Positions 3,533 through 34,212 of a DNA stretch of 35,763 nt are shown here, in pieces (the first letter of the stretch is position 1; each line of letters opens with the position of its first letter). The position numbers and the translations under genes are program-made. The notes under the pieces are model-generated. The model saw nothing but the letters and a program-made list of their open reading frames with translations, was not told where the DNA came from and ran no database searches. This DNA is from Lysobacterales bacterium (GTDB taxonomy: Bacteria; Pseudomonadota; Gammaproteobacteria; Xanthomonadales; Marinicellaceae), in contig JALSHI010000001.1 of NCBI GenBank assembly GCA_026982315.1, positions 1-35,763 on the forward strand, given 5' to 3'.

Positions 3533-3856
3533 ATGAACACAGTGATTACCTTTTCGCCAACGCCTGCCAAACGGCTTTTCATGGTCGTGGGCCTTTCTTG
3601 CTTTTTGCTTTCCACTACGGCTTGGGCCGAAGGCCGGCGCCTGGCTGTGAAAACTGTTCCCTTGGTGAGCGCACAAAAAGCCAGCGCACAGCCGGATATT
3701 GTTAATGGCTATTCCCTGAAAGCGCCCAAGATGACCCAAAGCATGGCGCGGGTGATGGCAGACGGGAAAGTCAGCCGGATCTGCCGGGACGTCGGCGTGG
3801 CCACGAAAAGCCTGCTGGTTGATGATGAGCGCAAGGGCAAGGAGCTGTTGAAATGA
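3533..3856 (+). CDS. Small secreted protein coupled to zinc protease, function unknown
   Basis: A 107-residue protein with a clear Sec signal peptide: hydrophobic core about residues 15-28 and a likely cleavage after AWA (near residue 32). The mature part is only about 75 residues, basic and mostly polar, with one Cys near residue 83 and no recognised domain. Its stop codon overlaps the ATG of the protease gene (ATGA at 3853-3856), so the two are translationally coupled. That suggests a joint role, for example as propeptide, inhibitor, chaperone or substrate, but this is inference only. An internal Met17 could be an alternative start that still leaves the hydrophobic core intact. Confidence 0.65.
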   Translation: MNTVITFSPTPAKRLFMVVGLSCFLLSTTAWAEGRRLAVKTVPLVSAQKASAQPDIVNGYSLKAPKMTQSMARVMADGKVSRICRDVGVATKSLLVDDERKGKELLK

Positions 3857-6135
3857 AGGGTGGGAAAAAAGCACTCACATCTTCAGTTTTTGTGGCTTTG
3901 ATTGCCGGGGTTATGGTGATTTTCACAGCCACAACCCAGGCTGCGGGCATTGAAAACAATGAAACAGTCACCATCAGCCTGCCGGCTCAGTCGCTCACCA
4001 CCGACTTGTGGGTGGATGTGTCAGCCGGCAGCAAAGCCCTGAATCTGGAAATGAGTAATGCCTCGCCCACGAATGTGGACGTAGATCTCTTCGTGCGTTA
4101 TGGCCAGCCATTTACCGGGACTACGGCGGCAGAACTTAGCAATCAGGCTGATTATCACTCGATTGCGGCCGACTCTGCTGAATGGCTGCACTTGACAGAA
4201 GCCATGGCTCCGCCGGTCAAAGGCGGACGCTGGTATATTGCTTTGGTGAACTATGCGCAAGTGACGGCCAGTGTAGATCTGACCGTGAGCCATAATGCTA
4301 ATCCAGTACCCAAGGCGCAAATCATCTTCCAGTTTGACAATACCGCCAACGGTTGCAAGGTGGATGGCTGGAATGACACCACGCCGTTTACGCCGGTGGC
4401 CGGAAACAATGCAACAACAGTGGGTCAGGCGCGCCGCAATGCGGCCATGAAAGCCGCGGAGTTGTTGGCTGAATCACTCACCAGCAGTGTGCCCATAGTG
4501 ATCCAGGGATGCTGGCCTGATGATCTGGAAACCTCCCAGAATTCGGCGGTGCTGGCCAATGCCGGCCCTAACCGGATTGGCTTGAACTATCCCGGATTGC
4601 CGTTGAGCGGTGTGTGGTACGGGCAGCCGGTGATGGAGCGCCTGGCGGGCACGGAATACTGCCGCATTGTGGGCGGGCTGGATTGTAATATCCCCACAAT
4701 TACCGCCAACTTTAACCCCAAAATTGACACCGATGAAGGCTTGGGCAGCACGCGCTGGTATTATGGTCTCGATTCTGCGGCCGCAGGCCGGAACGTTGAT
4801 TTTATTTCCACCGCCATGCACGAGATTACCCATGGGCTGGGATTTATCAGCCTGGTTTGGGTGGGTGATGACAAGGAATTCCAGTGTTTCAGCGGCCAGC
4901 CAGCCATTATGCACACTGCAGGCAGCAAATTCTGTGGTCTGGATGACGTTTTCTCGCTGGAACTAGTGGATTACAACGGCGGAGATATCCGGCCATTTAT
5001 GGAGCTGGATGACAGCCAGCGGCTGGATGCCATGCAGTCGGGTAACGAGCTGCAATGGGCCGGTGAAGCGGCTTCGCAGTCAGAGCGCAATATATTCCGG
5101 GAAAACAATGCCGGTTATGTATTGATGTATGCGCCCAATCCCCTGGAGCCTGGTTCCAGTGTGTCTCATCTGTTTCAAAGCGGCAATCCTTATGGCACCT
5201 CTTATCACGAGCTGATGACGCCCATGCAGCGGGATAATCTGCGAGAGCTGGGGTTGGCAGAGTACATGCTGTGGTCTGTGGGCTGGAATCCACAGCCGCT
5301 GAATAATGTTACCATCCAGCCTGGCATGTGGTATGACCGTGCCCATGATGGCCACGGCATGGTGATTGAGCCAATCAGAGACAACTTGTACTATGTGTTG
5401 TTTTACACCTACGACGATGAAGGCAATCCCGAGTGGATGGCTTCAGCCGCCACGGTGGAAAACGGGGTGTTCAATATTACCCAGGGTGACGGTAGCCTGA
5501 TTCGCTTTCTGTATGACTATGACATTGGCCCCAACCCGGACATACAGGCACATAGCCCGGATCCGGCTGTCAGCGCCAGCTTGAAGATTGACTTTAATGC
5601 CTCAGCAGCCAATGAATCTGCTTGCCTGGAAGGCGCAGATCGCAGTGGCGCCAGTCATTTGGCGGTGGTTAGCTGGCAGGTGAATGATTCCAGTGGAAGC
5701 TGGTGCCTGGAGCCGATAATTTCTATTGACCGCTATCCGCATCCCAATCTGGGTGCCAGTTGGTGGGCGGGCAGATCCGACCAGGGCTGGGGATTATCAC
5801 TGGTGTTTTTTGATAGCTCCATCGCTGTTGTCCTGTATTACTATGATGCCAGCGGCCAGCCACGCTGGGCCATTGGCACCCAAAGCGACTTTGTTATCGG
5901 TGAGGAAATTACGGTTCCCCTTAAGGAAAAACATGGCTATGCCAGAACAGCCACCCCGGTGGCGCTCACAGAAACCGATGCTGGAAGCATTACCTTGCGG
6001 CTGAACAGCGCCACCAATACTTTGGGGGCAGATGGCGAAGTCGTCAACCTGGATGTGACCTATCACGGACCAGAAGGCGGTAGCTGGCAACGCAGTGGAT
6101 TACCCATTACTAACTTGACGAAAGCAGCGGAATAA
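3853..6135 (+). CDS. Secreted leishmanolysin-like zinc metalloprotease with C-terminal repeat modules
   Basis: A 760-residue exported protein. Residues 1-31 form a signal peptide ending TTQAAG. About 35-140 resembles a bacterial pre-peptidase C-terminal (PPC) beta-sandwich, here at the N-terminal side (DVDLFVRYG, GGRWYIALVNY). The catalytic domain has the zincin motif HEITHGLGF (His323, Glu324, His327). A far-downstream SSVSHL gives a likely third zinc ligand at His439, and ELMTPM supplies a Met-turn at Met455. The long gap between second and third ligands resembles M8/leishmanolysin-type gluzincin-fold relatives rather than astacins. The C-terminal third carries two copies of a W-rich module (about 490-560 and 633-700) that also occurs in the protein at 10457. 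The protein ends without any PEP-CTERM/IPTL-CTERM tail. The substrate is unknown. Confidence 0.8.
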   Translation: MKGGKKALTSSVFVALIAGVMVIFTATTQAAGIENNETVTISLPAQSLTTDLWVDVSAGSKALNLEMSNASPTNVDVDLFVRYGQPFTGTTAAELSNQADYHSIAADSAEWLHLTEAMAPPVKGGRWYIALVNYAQVTASVDLTVSHNANPVPKAQIIFQFDNTANGCKVDGWNDTTPFTPVAGNNATTVGQARRNAAMKAAELLAESLTSSVPIVIQGCWPDDLETSQNSAVLANAGPNRIGLNYPGLPLSGVWYGQPVMERLAGTEYCRIVGGLDCNIPTITANFNPKIDTDEGLGSTRWYYGLDSAAAGRNVDFISTAMHEITHGLGFISLVWVGDDKEFQCFSGQPAIMHTAGSKFCGLDDVFSLELVDYNGGDIRPFMELDDSQRLDAMQSGNELQWAGEAASQSERNIFRENNAGYVLMYAPNPLEPGSSVSHLFQSGNPYGTSYHELMTPMQRDNLRELGLAEYMLWSVGWNPQPLNNVTIQPGMWYDRAHDGHGMVIEPIRDNLYYVLFYTYDDEGNPEWMASAATVENGVFNITQGDGSLIRFLYDYDIGPNPDIQAHSPDPAVSASLKIDFNASAANESACLEGADRSGASHLAVVSWQVNDSSGSWCLEPIISIDRYPHPNLGASWWAGRSDQGWGLSLVFFDSSIAVVLYYYDASGQPRWAIGTQSDFVIGEEITVPLKEKHGYARTATPVALTETDAGSITLRLNSATNTLGADGEVVNLDVTYHGPEGGSWQRSGLPITNLTKAAE

Positions 6136-6493: not shown

Positions 6494-6600
6494 GTCATTC
6501 CGGGTGTCCACTTTCGATATTCCGGGCGATTTTTCCTGCTTCGTTTCTCCAGGTAAGCCTCCACCCCGTCATTCCGGGCGAGCGTAGCGAGACCCGGAAT
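6494..6600. repeat. Degenerate 27-bp units plus dispersed 30-bp palindrome
   Basis: Units resembling GTCATTCCGGG start at 6494, 6516, 6543 and 6568 (spacing 22-27 bp). The last runs into a palindrome with arms ATTCCGGG (6571-6578) and CCCGGAAT (6593-6600) around a GAGCG.AGCGAG core. The 30-bp core recurs at 32981-33010 with a single base difference, so it is a dispersed element rather than a local hairpin. Confidence 0.8.
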
Positions 6601-6673
6601 CCATGTTCCGGTGTGCCGGAAACACACGCCATGGCCCGGTATTTTTGAGGCATATGGCCAGCCTGTGGCATGG

Positions 6674-6693
6674 ATTCCCGCTTGTGCGGGAAT
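6674..6693. repeat. dRS3-like inverted repeat
   Basis: ATTCCCGC and GCGGGAAT flank a TTGT loop, giving the 20-bp pattern ATTCCC-N8-GGGAAT. This is the pattern known as dRS3 in Neisseria and common as a dispersed repeat in other proteobacteria. It is followed by GACG and degenerate copies of GGGAATGA.GAGGA. Confidence 0.8.
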
Positions 6694-6809
6694 GACGAGG
6701 AAGTTAGGAATAATGGGGGATCTGGGAATGATGAGGAGTAGGCAAGAGTGACGGATAGGATGCGTGAATAGCAGGGCATACCGAATGGCGGGGTGACTGG
6801 CGAATATGG

Positions 6810-6829
6810 ATTCCCGCGTTCGCGGGAAT
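6810..6829. repeat. Second dRS3-like inverted repeat
   Basis: ATTCCCGCG and CGCGGGAAT flank a two-base TT loop and again fit ATTCCC-N8-GGGAAT. A further half-copy (GCGGGAATGAC) follows at about 6842-6852. Confidence 0.8.
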
Positions 6830-6921
6830 GACGATGAGGGGGCGGGAATGACTGTGGGGGCAGGTGGCTTCCGGTTGTGGAGACAGTAAGGCGGTGTTGG
6901 TTGTTGCTGTGTTCAGGCACG

Positions 6922-29899: not shown

Positions 29900-32626
29900 A
29901 TGGCTTTAAGCAAGATTTTTACCAAGATTTTCGGCAGTCGCAATGACCGCCTGATCCGGTCTATGCAAAAAACCGTCGACCAGATTAATGGTCTGGAAGA
30001 ACAGATGCAGGCACTCAGTGATGAGCAACTGCAAGCCAAAACAGAGGAATTCAAACAGCGTCTGCAAGCCGGCGAAAGCCTGGATGCGCTCTTGCCAGAG
30101 GCTTTTGCGGTGGTGCGGGAAGCGGCAGTCAGAACCCTGGGCATGCGTCATTACGACGTCCAGATGATTGGCGGCATGGTGTTGCATGACGGCAAAATCG
30201 CCGAAATGCGCACAGGCGAAGGGAAAACCCTGGTAGCCACCTTGCCGGCCTATCTGAATGCCCTCACTGGCAAGGGCGTCCACATTGTGACAGTTAATGA
30301 CTACCTGGCCCGCCGGGACGCCGAATGGATGCAGCCGGTTTATGAGTTTTTGGGCATGAAGGTGGGCGTGGTGGTGCCTGATATGGACCACGCCGCCAAA
30401 CGCGCCGCCTATGCGGCGGACATTACCTATGGCACCAATAATGAGTTCGGCTTTGACTACCTGCGCGACAACATGGCGTTTAGTCTGGAAGACCGTGTTC
30501 AGCGCGAATTGCATTATGCCATCGTTGACGAGGTGGATTCCATCCTGATTGATGAGGCGCGGACGCCACTGATTATTTCCGGTCCCGCTGATGATTCCCC
30601 CGAGCTGTATCACCGGGTCAACCGCCTGGTGCCCGCGCTGGAAAAAGGCGAGTCCTTTGAAGACCCTAACAAACCACCCACCGGCGACTTTACCGTGGAT
30701 GAGAAAACCAAGCAGGTTTATCTCACCGAACAGGGCATGGAAAAAATTGAACAAATCTGTGAAAAGGAAGGGCTGATTCAGCCGGGCGAGTCATTGTACG
30801 ACCCGCAACATCTTTCGCTCATGCACCACATTAATGCGGCTTTGCGCGCCCATCACCTGTACCAGAAGGACGTAGACTACATTGTTCAGGACGGCGAAGT
30901 GGTGATTGTTGACGAGTTCACCGGGCGCACGCTGGCTGGTCGCCGCTGGTCCGATGGCCTGCATCAGGCCGTGGAGGCCAAGGAAGGCGTGGCGGTGCAA
31001 AAAGAGAACCAGACCCTGGCGTCGGTCACCTTCCAGAACTATTTCCGTTTGTATGAAAAGCTGGCGGGCATGACAGGTACGGCCGATACTGAAGCCTATG
31101 AATTTCATACCATTTACGGCCTTGAAGTGGTGGTGATTCCCACCCATAAACCCGCACAACGCAAGGATGAAGGGGATCTGGTTTACCTGACCCAGGCGGC
31201 CAAATACAAAGCCATTCTGGATGATATCCGCGACGCCCACGAGCGTGGTCAGCCGGTGCTGGTGGGTACGGCCTCCATTGATGTTTCCGAGTTGCTGTCC
31301 GATGCGCTCAAAAAGGCCAAGATTCCGCATAATGTCCTCAATGCCAAGCAGCATGAACGCGAAGCGCAAATTATCGCCGAAGCGGGCAAGCCCGGGGCGG
31401 TGACCATTGCCACCAATATGGCTGGACGGGGCACCGATATCGTGCTCGGTGGCAACCTCAAGGTTGAACTTGAAGCCTTGGGCGAAAACGCGAGCCCGGA
31501 GGCCATCGAAAAACTCAAGGCCGACTGGCAAAAGCGGCATGATGCCGTCTTGGCCGCCGGTGGTTTACGCATTATCGGCACCGAGCGGCACGAATCCCGC
31601 CGTATCGACAACCAGCTTCGGGGGCGTTCCGGCCGCCAGGGCGATCCGGGTTCCTCGCGCTTTTATGTGTCGCTGGAAGACAACCTTATGCGGATCTTTG
31701 GCCAGGATCGCATTGCCAACACCATGCGGCGCATGGGCATGCAGGAAGACGAGGCCGTTGAACACCCGCTGATTTCCCGCAGTATCGAAAGTGCCCAGCG
31801 CAAGGTGGAAGGGCACAACTTCGATATCCGCAAAAACCTGCTGGAATACGATGATGTGGCCAACGACCAGCGACTGGTTATCTATCAACAGCGCGCCGAC
31901 TTGCTGGCTGCTGACGATATCAAGGAATTTATTGACGAAATTCGCCAGGAGGTGTTTGACAACCTGGTCAGGCAGTATATTCCCGAAGACAGCATTGACG
32001 AGCAATGGGATATCGCCGGTCTGGAACGTACCCTGGCCGGTGAGTTCGGTATTGAGCTGAATATCCAGCGCTGGGTGGAAAACGATGAAGAGCTGGACGA
32101 CCGGTTGCTGAGAGAAAAGGTCCTGGAAAATGTAAACCGCTTCTATCGTGAAAAAGAAGCCATGACCGGTTCGGAGGTCATGCGCCATTTTGAAAAAGCG
32201 GTGTATCTGAACGTGCTTGACCAGCTCTGGAAAGAGCATCTGGCCAATATGGACTACTTGCGACAGGGCATTGGCTTGCGTGGCTATGCCCAAAAACAAC
32301 CGGTGCAGGAATACAAGCGAGAAGCCTTCGAGATGTTTCGTGACTTGCTGGACCGCATCAAGCTGGAGGTCATGAAAATTATCGCCCAGGTCAAGGTGCG
32401 TGAAGAAGAAGACGTGGAAACCATGGAGCGCCAGCGGGAAGCCCAGCGCCAGCAGCACGCCATGGAATTTCAGCATCAACGCAGCGAGTCGGCCATCGCC
32501 GGCCAGCCCGCAGCGGCCGAAAAACCGGAAACCTTTGTGCGTCAAGGCAAAAAAATTGGCCGTAATGAACCTTGTCCCTGTGGTTCAGGCAAGAAATACA
32601 AACAATGCCACGGCCGCTTACAGTAA
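29900..32626 (+). CDS. secA: Preprotein translocase ATPase subunit SecA
   Basis: Motor ATPase that drives unfolded preproteins through SecYEG. The 908-residue protein is full length. Walker A MRTGEGKT (103-110, Lys109) and the DEAD-like [20 protein letters not shown] are present, along with the second nucleotide-binding domain ([13 protein letters not shown]) and [27 protein letters not shown]-type motif VI. The C-terminal zinc-binding tail has Cys892, Cys894, Cys903 and His904 ([13 protein letters not shown]), which binds SecB and phospholipids. It lies 119 bp after the M23 gene. Two tandem stop codons (TAATAA) end the gene. It serves all the Sec-dependent secreted proteins predicted in this window. 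Confidence 0.98.
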
Positions 32627-32644: not shown

Positions 32645-32746
32645 GAACAGGCTTGTGCGGGAAGGGTGACCCACTCCTTTCCGCGGTTTTTATGATTTTA
32701 GCTGCGCGCCCTTTTCCGACATGGCGATGGCTTGACCAGGGCATGG

Positions 32747-32766
32747 ATTCCCGCTTCCGCGGGAAT
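32747..32766. repeat. dRS3-like inverted repeat
   Basis: ATTCCCGC and GCGGGAAT flank TTCC, giving ATTCCC-N8-GGGAAT as at 6674 and 6810. A half-copy starting ATTCCCG is at 33041-33055. Confidence 0.8.
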
Positions 32767-32816
32767 GACGGGGAGTCGTCGGGAATGACGGGGAGTCGGT
32801 GGGGATGACGGGGTAG
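32761..32816. repeat. 20-bp tandem array, three units
   Basis: Units of GGGAATGACGGGGAGTCG-type start at 32761, 32781 and 32801 (period 20 bp). They extend the right arm of the dRS3-like repeat, and the third carries a few changes. Confidence 0.85.
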
Positions 32817-32818
32817 GC

Positions 32819-33010
32819 GTTATTCCGGGTGGCTTCCTTCTGCGTCATTCTGGATGGTTTTCCTTACCCATCATCCCGGGCGAGCTTCCCTCCTTCGTCA
32901 TTCCGGGTGAGCTTTCTTTTTTCGTCATTCCGGGTGAGCTTCCCACCTTCGTCATCCCGGACGAGCTTCTCACCTTCGTCATTCCGGGCGAGCGGAGCGA
33001 GACCCGGAAT
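32819..33010. repeat. 27-bp tandem array ending in dispersed palindrome
   Basis: Seven units resembling GTCATTCCGGGTGAGCTTCC start at 32819, 32844, 32870, 32897, 32924, 32951 and 32978, so the last five steps are 26-27 bp. Each unit equals the left half of the 30-bp palindrome at 32981-33010 (ATTCCGGG and CCCGGAAT arms) plus a CT-rich spacer (such as TTCCCACCTTC). Units vary at several positions. The right half is present only in the last unit. Confidence 0.88.
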
Positions 33011-33067
33011 CCATGGTCTCAGACGGCACAGGGTGCGTGGATTCCCGTTCCCGCGTTTGACTTACGC

Positions 33068-33073: not shown

Positions 33074-33141
33074 CGCCCGCTCATTATTTGTCCTGTACCA
33101 TTTTGGGGCGTTTGGGCAAAGAGAGACAATGGGTGGAGAAG

Positions 33142-34212
33142 ATGGCGACAGTGTGTCAGGAAAATATTGTGCCTGTGGTGGCTTTGGCGCTTTTTGATGA
33201 GCAGGGTCGGGTGCTGGTGCAGCAGAGAAGCCAGCACAAGCACCAAGGTGGCTTGTGGGAGTTTCCTGGCGGAAAGGTGGAAGCCGGGGAAAGCGCACAG
33301 GCGGCCTTGCGGCGGGAAATTATCGAGGAATTGGGTGTGGATATCACGATGGCGGCGGACAAGCCCCGGCGTTTGATTCGGCTTCGCCATGATTATCCCG
33401 ACAAGACAGTTGATCTGGATGTGTGGCTGGTGACCGATGGTGGCCTGGCTGCGGCCGTGCGCGCCAGGGAGGCTCAGCCACTGTGCTGGTTGAAACCGGA
33501 TCATCTGCTGGAATTGCCCATGCCTGCAGCGGATCGCCCTGTGGTCAATGCCTTGCGGTTACCGCATTATTACTGGATTACACCGGCATTGGCGGCCAGC
33601 GCCGTTTCAATACACAAAAACTCTCCCCAGGCGATTAGCCAATGGCTGGCTGCAGTTCGCCAGCGGCTGGATACCGGTGTGCCGATGATCCAGTTTCGCA
33701 GCGCCACGGTGCCAAAGGCCAGCCGGGCCGGAGTGCTTAAAGTCTTGCGGGGCTGGTGTCGCGAGCGCCGTGTTCCGCTGGTTTACAATGGGGATTTAGG
33801 CGAGGCCCGGGCCATGCTGGAGTATGGAATTATTGACGGGGTTCATCTGAACAGTCGCCAGCTTATGGACTTGTCTGAGCGGCCGGTGAGCCCATCGGTG
33901 TGGCTTTCCGCCTCAACACATAATGCTGATGAGTTGCATCAGGCCAAGGTGGTGGGTGTGGATTTTGCCAGTGTGTCGCCGGTCAAACCGACAACTTCCC
34001 ATCCAGAGTCCCCGCCACTGGGCTGGACGGGCTTTGCCCGGCTGGCGGCAGAGGTGAGTATGCCGGTTTATGCCCTGGGCGGCATGAGCCTGGCAGATGT
34101 GCCGCAAGCGCAGCGATGGGGCGGCCAGGGCGTGGCAGGTATCACCTTGCCGTTAGCCAGCCACCACCGTGCGGACGCTGATATGCCCCAGGAAGAACAG
34201 GGGCAGTTCTGA
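33142..34212 (+). CDS. Nudix hydrolase (MutT-like) fused to ThiE-like domain
   Basis: A 356-residue two-domain protein. Residues about 8-130 are a MutT-type Nudix domain with a complete Nudix box (Gly44, Glu50, Arg58-Glu59, Glu62-Glu63, Gly65), expected to hydrolyse 8-oxo-dGTP or a related nucleotide. Residues about 145-340 resemble thiamine-phosphate synthase (ThiE), with DGVHLNSRQL, SASTHN and VYALGGM in order. However, the ThiE motif QLRxK reads QFRSA and the ND of the substrate site reads NG, so synthase activity is doubtful. This fusion after secA is common in Gammaproteobacteria. GGAG sits three to four bases from the ATG at 33142, slightly close. Convergent with cytochrome b561 (5 bp apart). 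Confidence 0.88.
   Translation: MATVCQENIVPVVALALFDEQGRVLVQQRSQHKHQGGLWEFPGGKVEAGESAQAALRREIIEELGVDITMAADKPRRLIRLRHDYPDKTVDLDVWLVTDGGLAAAVRAREAQPLCWLKPDHLLELPMPAADRPVVNALRLPHYYWITPALAASAVSIHKNSPQAISQWLAAVRQRLDTGVPMIQFRSATVPKASRAGVLKVLRGWCRERRVPLVYNGDLGEARAMLEYGIIDGVHLNSRQLMDLSERPVSPSVWLSASTHNADELHQAKVVGVDFASVSPVKPTTSHPESPPLGWTGFARLAAEVSMPVYALGGMSLADVPQAQRWGGQGVAGITLPLASHHRADADMPQEEQGQF

Follow-up and report, generated by a model that had tools for sequence, protein, structure and literature searches.

A 27-bp tandem repeat that copies one half of a palindrome, and that ends in an intact copy of the palindrome itself, raises the question of how one side of a symmetric element comes to be amplified. 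This repeat lies in a 35,763-nucleotide (nt) stretch (the window), which corresponds to contig 1 in the draft genome of a Lysobacterales bacterium (the source genome; 2.24 Mb in 70 contigs, 99% complete). It forms part of an island of ~310 bp, flanked by secA (29900 to 32626) on one side and by a Nudix/ThiE gene (33088 to 34212) on the other, as identified with Pfam. The island contains the following features:

32744 to 32769, minus strand: hairpin B, in the opposite orientation to A (from sequence and DNA fold)
32770 to 32813, minus strand: two B-type half-units of 20 bp each, on the tag side of hairpin B
32819 to 32977, plus strand: array of six A half-units of 25 to 27 bp, on the tag side of hairpin A
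32978 to 33013, plus strand: hairpin A, a complete CGTC-tagged REP (from sequence and DNA fold)
33038 to 33055, minus strand: remnant of a B hairpin, with 3' arm and loop and without the tag arm

Half-palindromes in the window

Each A half-unit consists of the left arm, GTCATTCCGGG(CGAGC), and a pyrimidine-rich spacer. The units start at 32819, 32844, 32870, 32897, 32924, and 32951, with spacings of 25, 26, 27, 27, 27, and 27 bp, and Tandem Repeats Finder reports periods of 27 and 54 bp (scores of 162 and 175). The consensus unit shares 16 nt with hairpin A, as far as the inner loop. The first-pass annotation of this DNA had described a left arm and CT-rich spacer repeated, with the full palindrome last, which is the arrangement present at 32819 to 33013; of the seven units that it counted, six are half-units and the seventh is the complete palindrome (32978 to 33013). 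A second type of palindrome, B, which it had overlooked, occurs in both islands of the window with half-units of its own of ~20 bp, and the tags of A and B in the focal island point inwards.

The second island (6494 to 6852) was also correctly read as degenerate units followed by a palindrome, but there are three units rather than four:

6494 to 6567, plus strand: three degenerate A half-units before hairpin A, starting at 6494, 6516, and about 6543
6568 to 6603, plus strand: second hairpin A (from sequence and DNA fold)
6671 to 6732, minus strand: hairpin B (6671 to 6696) with degenerate tag-side unit(s)
6807 to 6852, minus strand: hairpin B (6807 to 6832) with one 20-bp tag-side half-unit

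The window contains 30 matches to GTCATTCCGGG at two mismatches or fewer, whereas shuffled windows average 12.3 (standard deviation, 3.8), and none of 100 shuffles attained 30. Over the 2.24 Mb of the source genome there are 49 exact copies of GTCATTCCGGG and none of the reversed control, upholding the initial view that the left half is amplified. Shuffles, reversed controls, and genome-wide counts all reject a chance origin of the arrays. Predicted DNA folds are clearly better than those of shuffled sequences only for hairpin B (32741 to 32770, -8.8 kcal/mol, z = -3.1); that of hairpin A (32978 to 33015) has -7.8 kcal/mol and z = -1.5, and the other A copy has z = -2.0. The whole window gave no Rfam match at gathering thresholds, and a reading as an RNA family was therefore dropped. 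Elsewhere in the window, a 760-amino-acid open frame (3853 to 6135) has no Pfam match at an E value of 0.001.

Assignment to the CGTC-tagged REPs

The palindromes of the window are CGTC-tagged REPs. According to the main text of PMC3733652, this superfamily is marked by an unpaired CGTC (or TGTC/CCTC) tag, a stem of 8 to 9 bp that starts with AT, a loop of 4 to 5 nt, a tail that is mostly CCA, and a predominance of head-to-head dimers, with other loop lengths in some members. Both window hairpins read CGTC, and the base preceding GTC is C in 77% of 66 source-genome hairpins, GTC itself being part of the search pattern. Hairpin A is composed of the tag GTC, an 8-bp stem (ATTCCGGG/CCCGGAAT), an inner loop (GCGAGC..GCGAG), and the tail CCA; hairpin B reads GTCATTCCCGC-GGAA-GCGGGAATCCA on the minus strand and also has an 8-bp stem starting with AT (ATTCCCGC), and the folds agree with both stems. 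The correspondence with the described superfamily covers the unpaired end tag, the stem, the 4-nt loop of B, the unpaired CCA tail, the uneven spread among species, and the head-to-head dimers of unlike partners with a spacer, a form seen in eleven picked A-core-B copies and in the islands (PMC3733652). It does not cover the interior of A, which is longer and has a small inner pairing, or the A-B core of ~125 bp, as opposed to 20 to 100 bp in most dimers (PMC3733652).

When the superfamily was reported in 2013, it was without a dedicated transposase (Di Nocera, De Gregorio and Rocco, PMC3733652), and we found no agent named for it since. In the main text of that report we found no description of tag-side arrays of 5' halves, nor did we find half-arrays described in the open-access literature. 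REPINs and their RAYT systems are similar in having short tagged hairpins, inverted doublets, and a tag 5' of the hairpin that may guide cleavage (PMC3116915, PMC8266576). Unlike in those systems, the tag here is CGTC and GTAG is absent, the 99%-complete source genome has no Y1 match, and the arrays consist of halves, the tandem arrays described for GTAG REPs being made of whole REPs (PMC3116915).

Among the Neisseria dRS3/NIME mosaics, dRS3 corresponds to CGTC-1 (PMC3733652). A half-unit precedes a dRS3-type hairpin in two Neisseria gonorrhoeae strains, where 100 kb per strain yielded units at 2 hairpins out of 19 and at 1 out of 12, far fewer than here. CRISPR arrays likewise alternate short repeats with evenly sized spacers and carry a special sequence at one end; in the present arrays, however, the repeat is half a hairpin, spacers of the same array resemble one another, and an intact hairpin terminates the array.

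Copies in the source genome and its relatives

The pattern GTCATTCC-N6-30-GGAATCCA occurs 69 times in the source genome and its control not at all, so that the element exists in dozens of copies and not in the window's two alone. The 34 stretches examined around matches to tag-arm seeds (100 of 104 places listed), together with the window, contain 34 hairpins of type A and 42 of type B, or 76 different ones in all (one mismatch allowed in the ends); this seeding under-samples hairpins whose tag is damaged. Eleven hand-picked A-core-B copies align over 186 columns, in which the hairpins are nearly invariant and the ~125-bp core is much more diverged. Matches between islands are mostly 67 to 85% identical (60 longest of 108), and the choice of islands by exact seeds favors conserved ends.

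Among 370 genomes of the class, 133 contain the hairpin pattern (control total, 5 matches). Two genomes of the same genus (87% and 90% complete) contain no match, and in both the island between the secA and Nudix blocks is absent, the gap being 185 and 191 bp versus 557 bp here (BLAST coordinates). Same-genus SecA is 93% identical, yet those genomes have no hairpin matches against 69 here, where copies of the element are strongly diverged.

One-sidedness of the arrays

Half-palindrome arrays reach far beyond the two loci of the window, and they stand on the tag side of the hairpin. In the source genome, an extra half-arm is present on the tag side of 37 of the 76 hairpins and on the tail side of none (at most 2 mismatches of 10); allowing 3 mismatches of 10, at which chance matches enter, gives 43 and 10. 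In 43 hairpin-rich genomes, an extra exact tag 4 to 16 nt upstream occurs at 87 places, some of them nested, which belong to 16 of the genomes, and both the mirror, tail-side pattern and the reversed-pattern controls occur at none. Genome G089 has the highest tag-side count in this exact-tag search (20 places). With a wider gap, run on the tag side only, there are 169 places in 24 of the 43 genomes, including whole head-to-tail REPs that come chiefly from G089.

Two origins from whole elements were considered and rejected. Decayed head-to-tail dimers of whole REPs do exist (many of the 55 places in G089), but half-units without a 3' arm predominate. Had one REP inserted into an older REP, a 3' half should remain beyond the tail, and none was seen there.

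A scan of public sequences for three tags, whose pattern restricted seeding units to 16 to 22 bp, yielded at least 111 loci; a hairpin closes 107 of the 116 distinct arrays, and 4 arrays lie so close to a sequence end that they cannot be judged in full. The 80 titles among the matches listed include Proteobacteria, Binatia, Chloroflexota, Pirellulales, Campylobacteraceae, Clostridia, and others, and the carriers include cultured environmental bacteria such as Halopseudomonas pelagia and Methylophaga lonarensis. As 71 of these 80 titles denote metagenome-assembled sequences and certain genomes contribute several loci, binning errors and non-independence are possible. At 127 public hairpins outside the locus seeding, an extra half-arm occurs 51 times on the tag side and once on the tail side (at most 1 mismatch of 9), or 57 and 6 times with 2 mismatches of 9. 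On plasmid pGJ3-1 of Photobacterium sp. GJ3 (L287, L292), hairpins follow one half-unit, with several copies 336 bp apart, and over 50 kb of this strain a tag-side unit is present at 5 of 12 hairpins and a tail-side unit at none.

This asymmetry bears on slippage, which had been suggested as one possible amplifier. Slippage at the hairpin through microhomology could produce the first duplication and unequal exchange could expand it, with no activity that reads the tag; the one-sidedness would then come from local composition, the tag side being pyrimidine-rich and G-poor. The pyrimidine fraction of the 8 nt before the tag is indeed raised even at hairpins without units (0.74 in the source genome and 0.71 in the public set, against 0.64 and 0.46 on the tail side), and it reaches 0.91 and 0.82, respectively, at hairpins with units. 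However, the two sides of source-genome hairpins that lack an array differ only modestly in composition, and the symmetric stem should give a mirror product at a comparable rate on the other strand; mirror arrays were found at 0 of 76 source-genome hairpins, were absent from all 43 genomes, and occurred at 1 of 127 public hairpins. The one-sidedness casts doubt on simple slippage, and we consider this explanation as a whole unlikely. The near absence of mirror products suggests that the tag is read, either directly or via selection, and a half-array before a CGTC REP hints at a process in which one end of the palindrome is recognized.

Breakpoints, spacers, and growth in place

The unit consists of the tag, the 5' arm of the hairpin, and a spacer, and units follow head to tail with one intact hairpin at the end. 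Breakpoints cluster at the top of the hairpin: the length shared by unit and hairpin peaks at 11 nt, corresponding to the tag GTC and the 8-bp stem (33 of 109 and 27 of 107 arrays), and the spacer measures 5 to 14 nt in 90 of 109 and 87 of 107 arrays. One-sided growth from the tag with a break at the hairpin top constitutes a strand-specific signature of the fate of CGTC REPs.

In the public set, adjacent spacers match at 6.6 of 8 bases within arrays versus 2.9 of 8 between arrays, and 106 of 238 adjacent pairs are identical. The outer flank also resembles the spacer, at 4.23 of 8 bases in 107 public arrays (shuffled mean, 2.62; maximum, 3.07) and at 4.25 of 8 in 73 arrays of other genomes (2.96 shuffled; maximum, 3.47), 19 of these 73 being copies from genome G356 that are not independent. 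For the 34 arrays of the source genome the value is within chance (3.26 of 8, with 2.86 shuffled and a maximum of 3.56), which is compatible with old arrays but gives no support. Because each locus has spacers of its own, which agree within an array and in a minority of arrays copy the DNA immediately 5' of the tag, many arrays are built in place.

Perfect duplications of flank plus arm occur in 8 of the 107 public arrays (shuffled mean, 0.1; maximum, 2), and at locus L121 each tag is preceded by one and the same 12-base flank word. In 81 of the 107, unbroken identity between flank and spacer extends to 3 nt at most. A flank copy (at least 7 of 8 bases) is kept in 15 of 55 homogeneous arrays versus 2 of 52 heterogeneous ones, indicating that in most arrays the derivation of the first unit from the local flank can no longer be seen, or that the unit arose otherwise. 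Slippage gains from the perfect duplications, whose junctions overlap by 0 to 1 nt in six cases, by 5 nt in one, and by 11 nt in one; the homogeneous arrays agree with slippage as a later step.

If the half-unit were instead a fixed outer part of a two-hairpin mobile element, the arrays would be insertion footprints at its ends. Matches between A-core-B copies often take in a flanking unit, many G356 copies have the half-unit and the DNA beyond it in common, and head-to-head dimers predominate among CGTC REPs (PMC3733652). This account is nevertheless improbable: spacers vary by locus, agree within an array, and match the local flank beyond chance, and sister copies differ in unit number, the G356 copies with similar upstream DNA carrying 1, 2, 3, or 4 units. 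Variation in array length, which the first-pass annotation had proposed to compare among strains, is thereby established for these copies. In two N. gonorrhoeae records (100 kb each), the five hairpins matched by their right flank have equal unit numbers and are uninformative on this point, and among the matches listed in a plasmid search there was no set of strains with a common array. The N. gonorrhoeae loci L285 and L286 (2022NG-0076 and 2022NG-0032), from chromosome-sized records of 2.17 Mb that are filed as plasmids, have the left flank (nearly), the half-unit, and the hairpin in common, and their DNA differs just past the hairpin, as if exchanged at the REP.

Selection could also produce one-sidedness, if tag-side arrays were retained because they serve as binding sites or contribute to a terminator while mirror arrays were lost. 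The direct repeats would lie about two helical turns apart, and a C-rich, G-poor strand leading into a hairpin recalls Rho-dependent termination. Of the 107 public arrays, 44 have an outermost unit with a period of 21 bp, under a pattern that confined seeding units to 16 to 22 bp. In array spacers of the source genome, pyrimidines make up 91% and G 1% of the 8 nt that precede the tag (35 hairpins). On the other hand, units of the source genome decay, the period is 27 bp for A and ~20 bp for B, and periods differ by locus, and we regard selection as very improbable.

A gradient of unit decay away from the hairpin is unproven. With unit 1 excluded, 121 of 5,000 permutations matched the gradient in 29 arrays, and the subsets gave 507 of 5,000 (source genome) and 317 of 5,000 (other genomes); in the public set, from unit 3 onward, the count was 1,257 of 5,000. 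A seemingly strong gradient (0 of 5,000 permutations) was discarded as biased, unit 1 having been under a stricter threshold.

Candidate enzymes

A dedicated RAYT- or Piv-like transposase had been named as a possible agent, and the evidence does not support it. Profile searches of the source genome (99%-complete draft) found no match to Y1_Tnp (PF01797) or to the N-terminal domain of IS110/Piv (PF01548); control searches with PF01797 gave matches in 5 of 14 genomes. Over the class, PF01797 is matched in 254 of 370 genomes and in 34 of the 38 with at least 15 hairpin-pattern matches (exceptions, G000, G089, G108, and G301), a mild association that ignores genome size and kinship. A RAYT as the required agent was rejected, as three of these four hairpin-rich genomes without PF01797 bear arrays, among them G089 and the single-contig G108. 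Piv/IS110 was rejected as a general agent, being found in 5 of 16 array-bearing genomes; PF01548 is absent from G089 and has one match in G108. Because G089 bears arrays with neither Y1 nor IS110, neither family appears to be required, subject to a gene having been missed in a draft genome.

A possible route to tag-side arrays

The route that we favor, while holding it at slightly below an even chance, is that tag-side arrays on CGTC REPs are built by a tag-directed nick or stall followed by rejoining of a flap. An activity that reads the tag would nick or stall one strand ~5 to 14 nt 5' of the tag, and a polymerase would copy the flank and the 5' arm until halted by the hairpin in the template. 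The displaced 5' flap could then fold as a hairpin, be hard to trim, and be rejoined, adding one unit of flank plus arm. In eukaryotic work, folded flaps resist trimming and ligation of flaps yields tandem duplications. Slippage or unequal exchange could later expand the existing units, which would also decay; the arrays of the source genome look old, and part of them probably moved with the two-hairpin element (A, ~125-bp core, B). A tag-guided, strand-specific cut is suggested by analogy with TnpA-REP and IS200/IS605, in which cleavage of one particular strand is directed by a tetranucleotide lying 5' of the hairpin (PMC8266576, PMC6006769), and the putative excision intermediate of REPINs is a hairpin with a 5' tail (PMC3116915).

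Several results weigh against this nick-and-rejoin route. The best-fitting Y1 enzymes were not found in the source genome, G089, or G108; in the source genome the outer flank matches the spacer no better than chance, and unbroken flank-spacer identity is at most 3 nt in most public arrays. The decay gradient that repeated growth beside the hairpin predicts is weak, and inspection of the presumed cut site by eye revealed no evident consensus.

The broader proposal, that a widespread tag-reading activity across many phyla repeatedly copies the flank and 5' arm at CGTC REPs, is more tentative and may well be wrong. If true, the arrays are a fossil record of this activity and point to a missing mobilizing enzyme, which need not be a RAYT. 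The gain of one unit is a measurable event, traceable in sequencing data and assayable on a plasmid. Half-palindrome arrays also explain a class of 17- to 27-bp satellites that seem to be independent repeats.

Other repeats of the same elements

Two stretches of the source genome (L040, 915 to 1367, and L060, 921 to 1285) contain recent-looking tandem duplications of two hairpins with the intervening DNA, at 96% and 93% identity, respectively. At a contig end (L054, 1144 to 1183), a run of the 9-mer GTCATCCCC repeats the same tag at a much shorter period.
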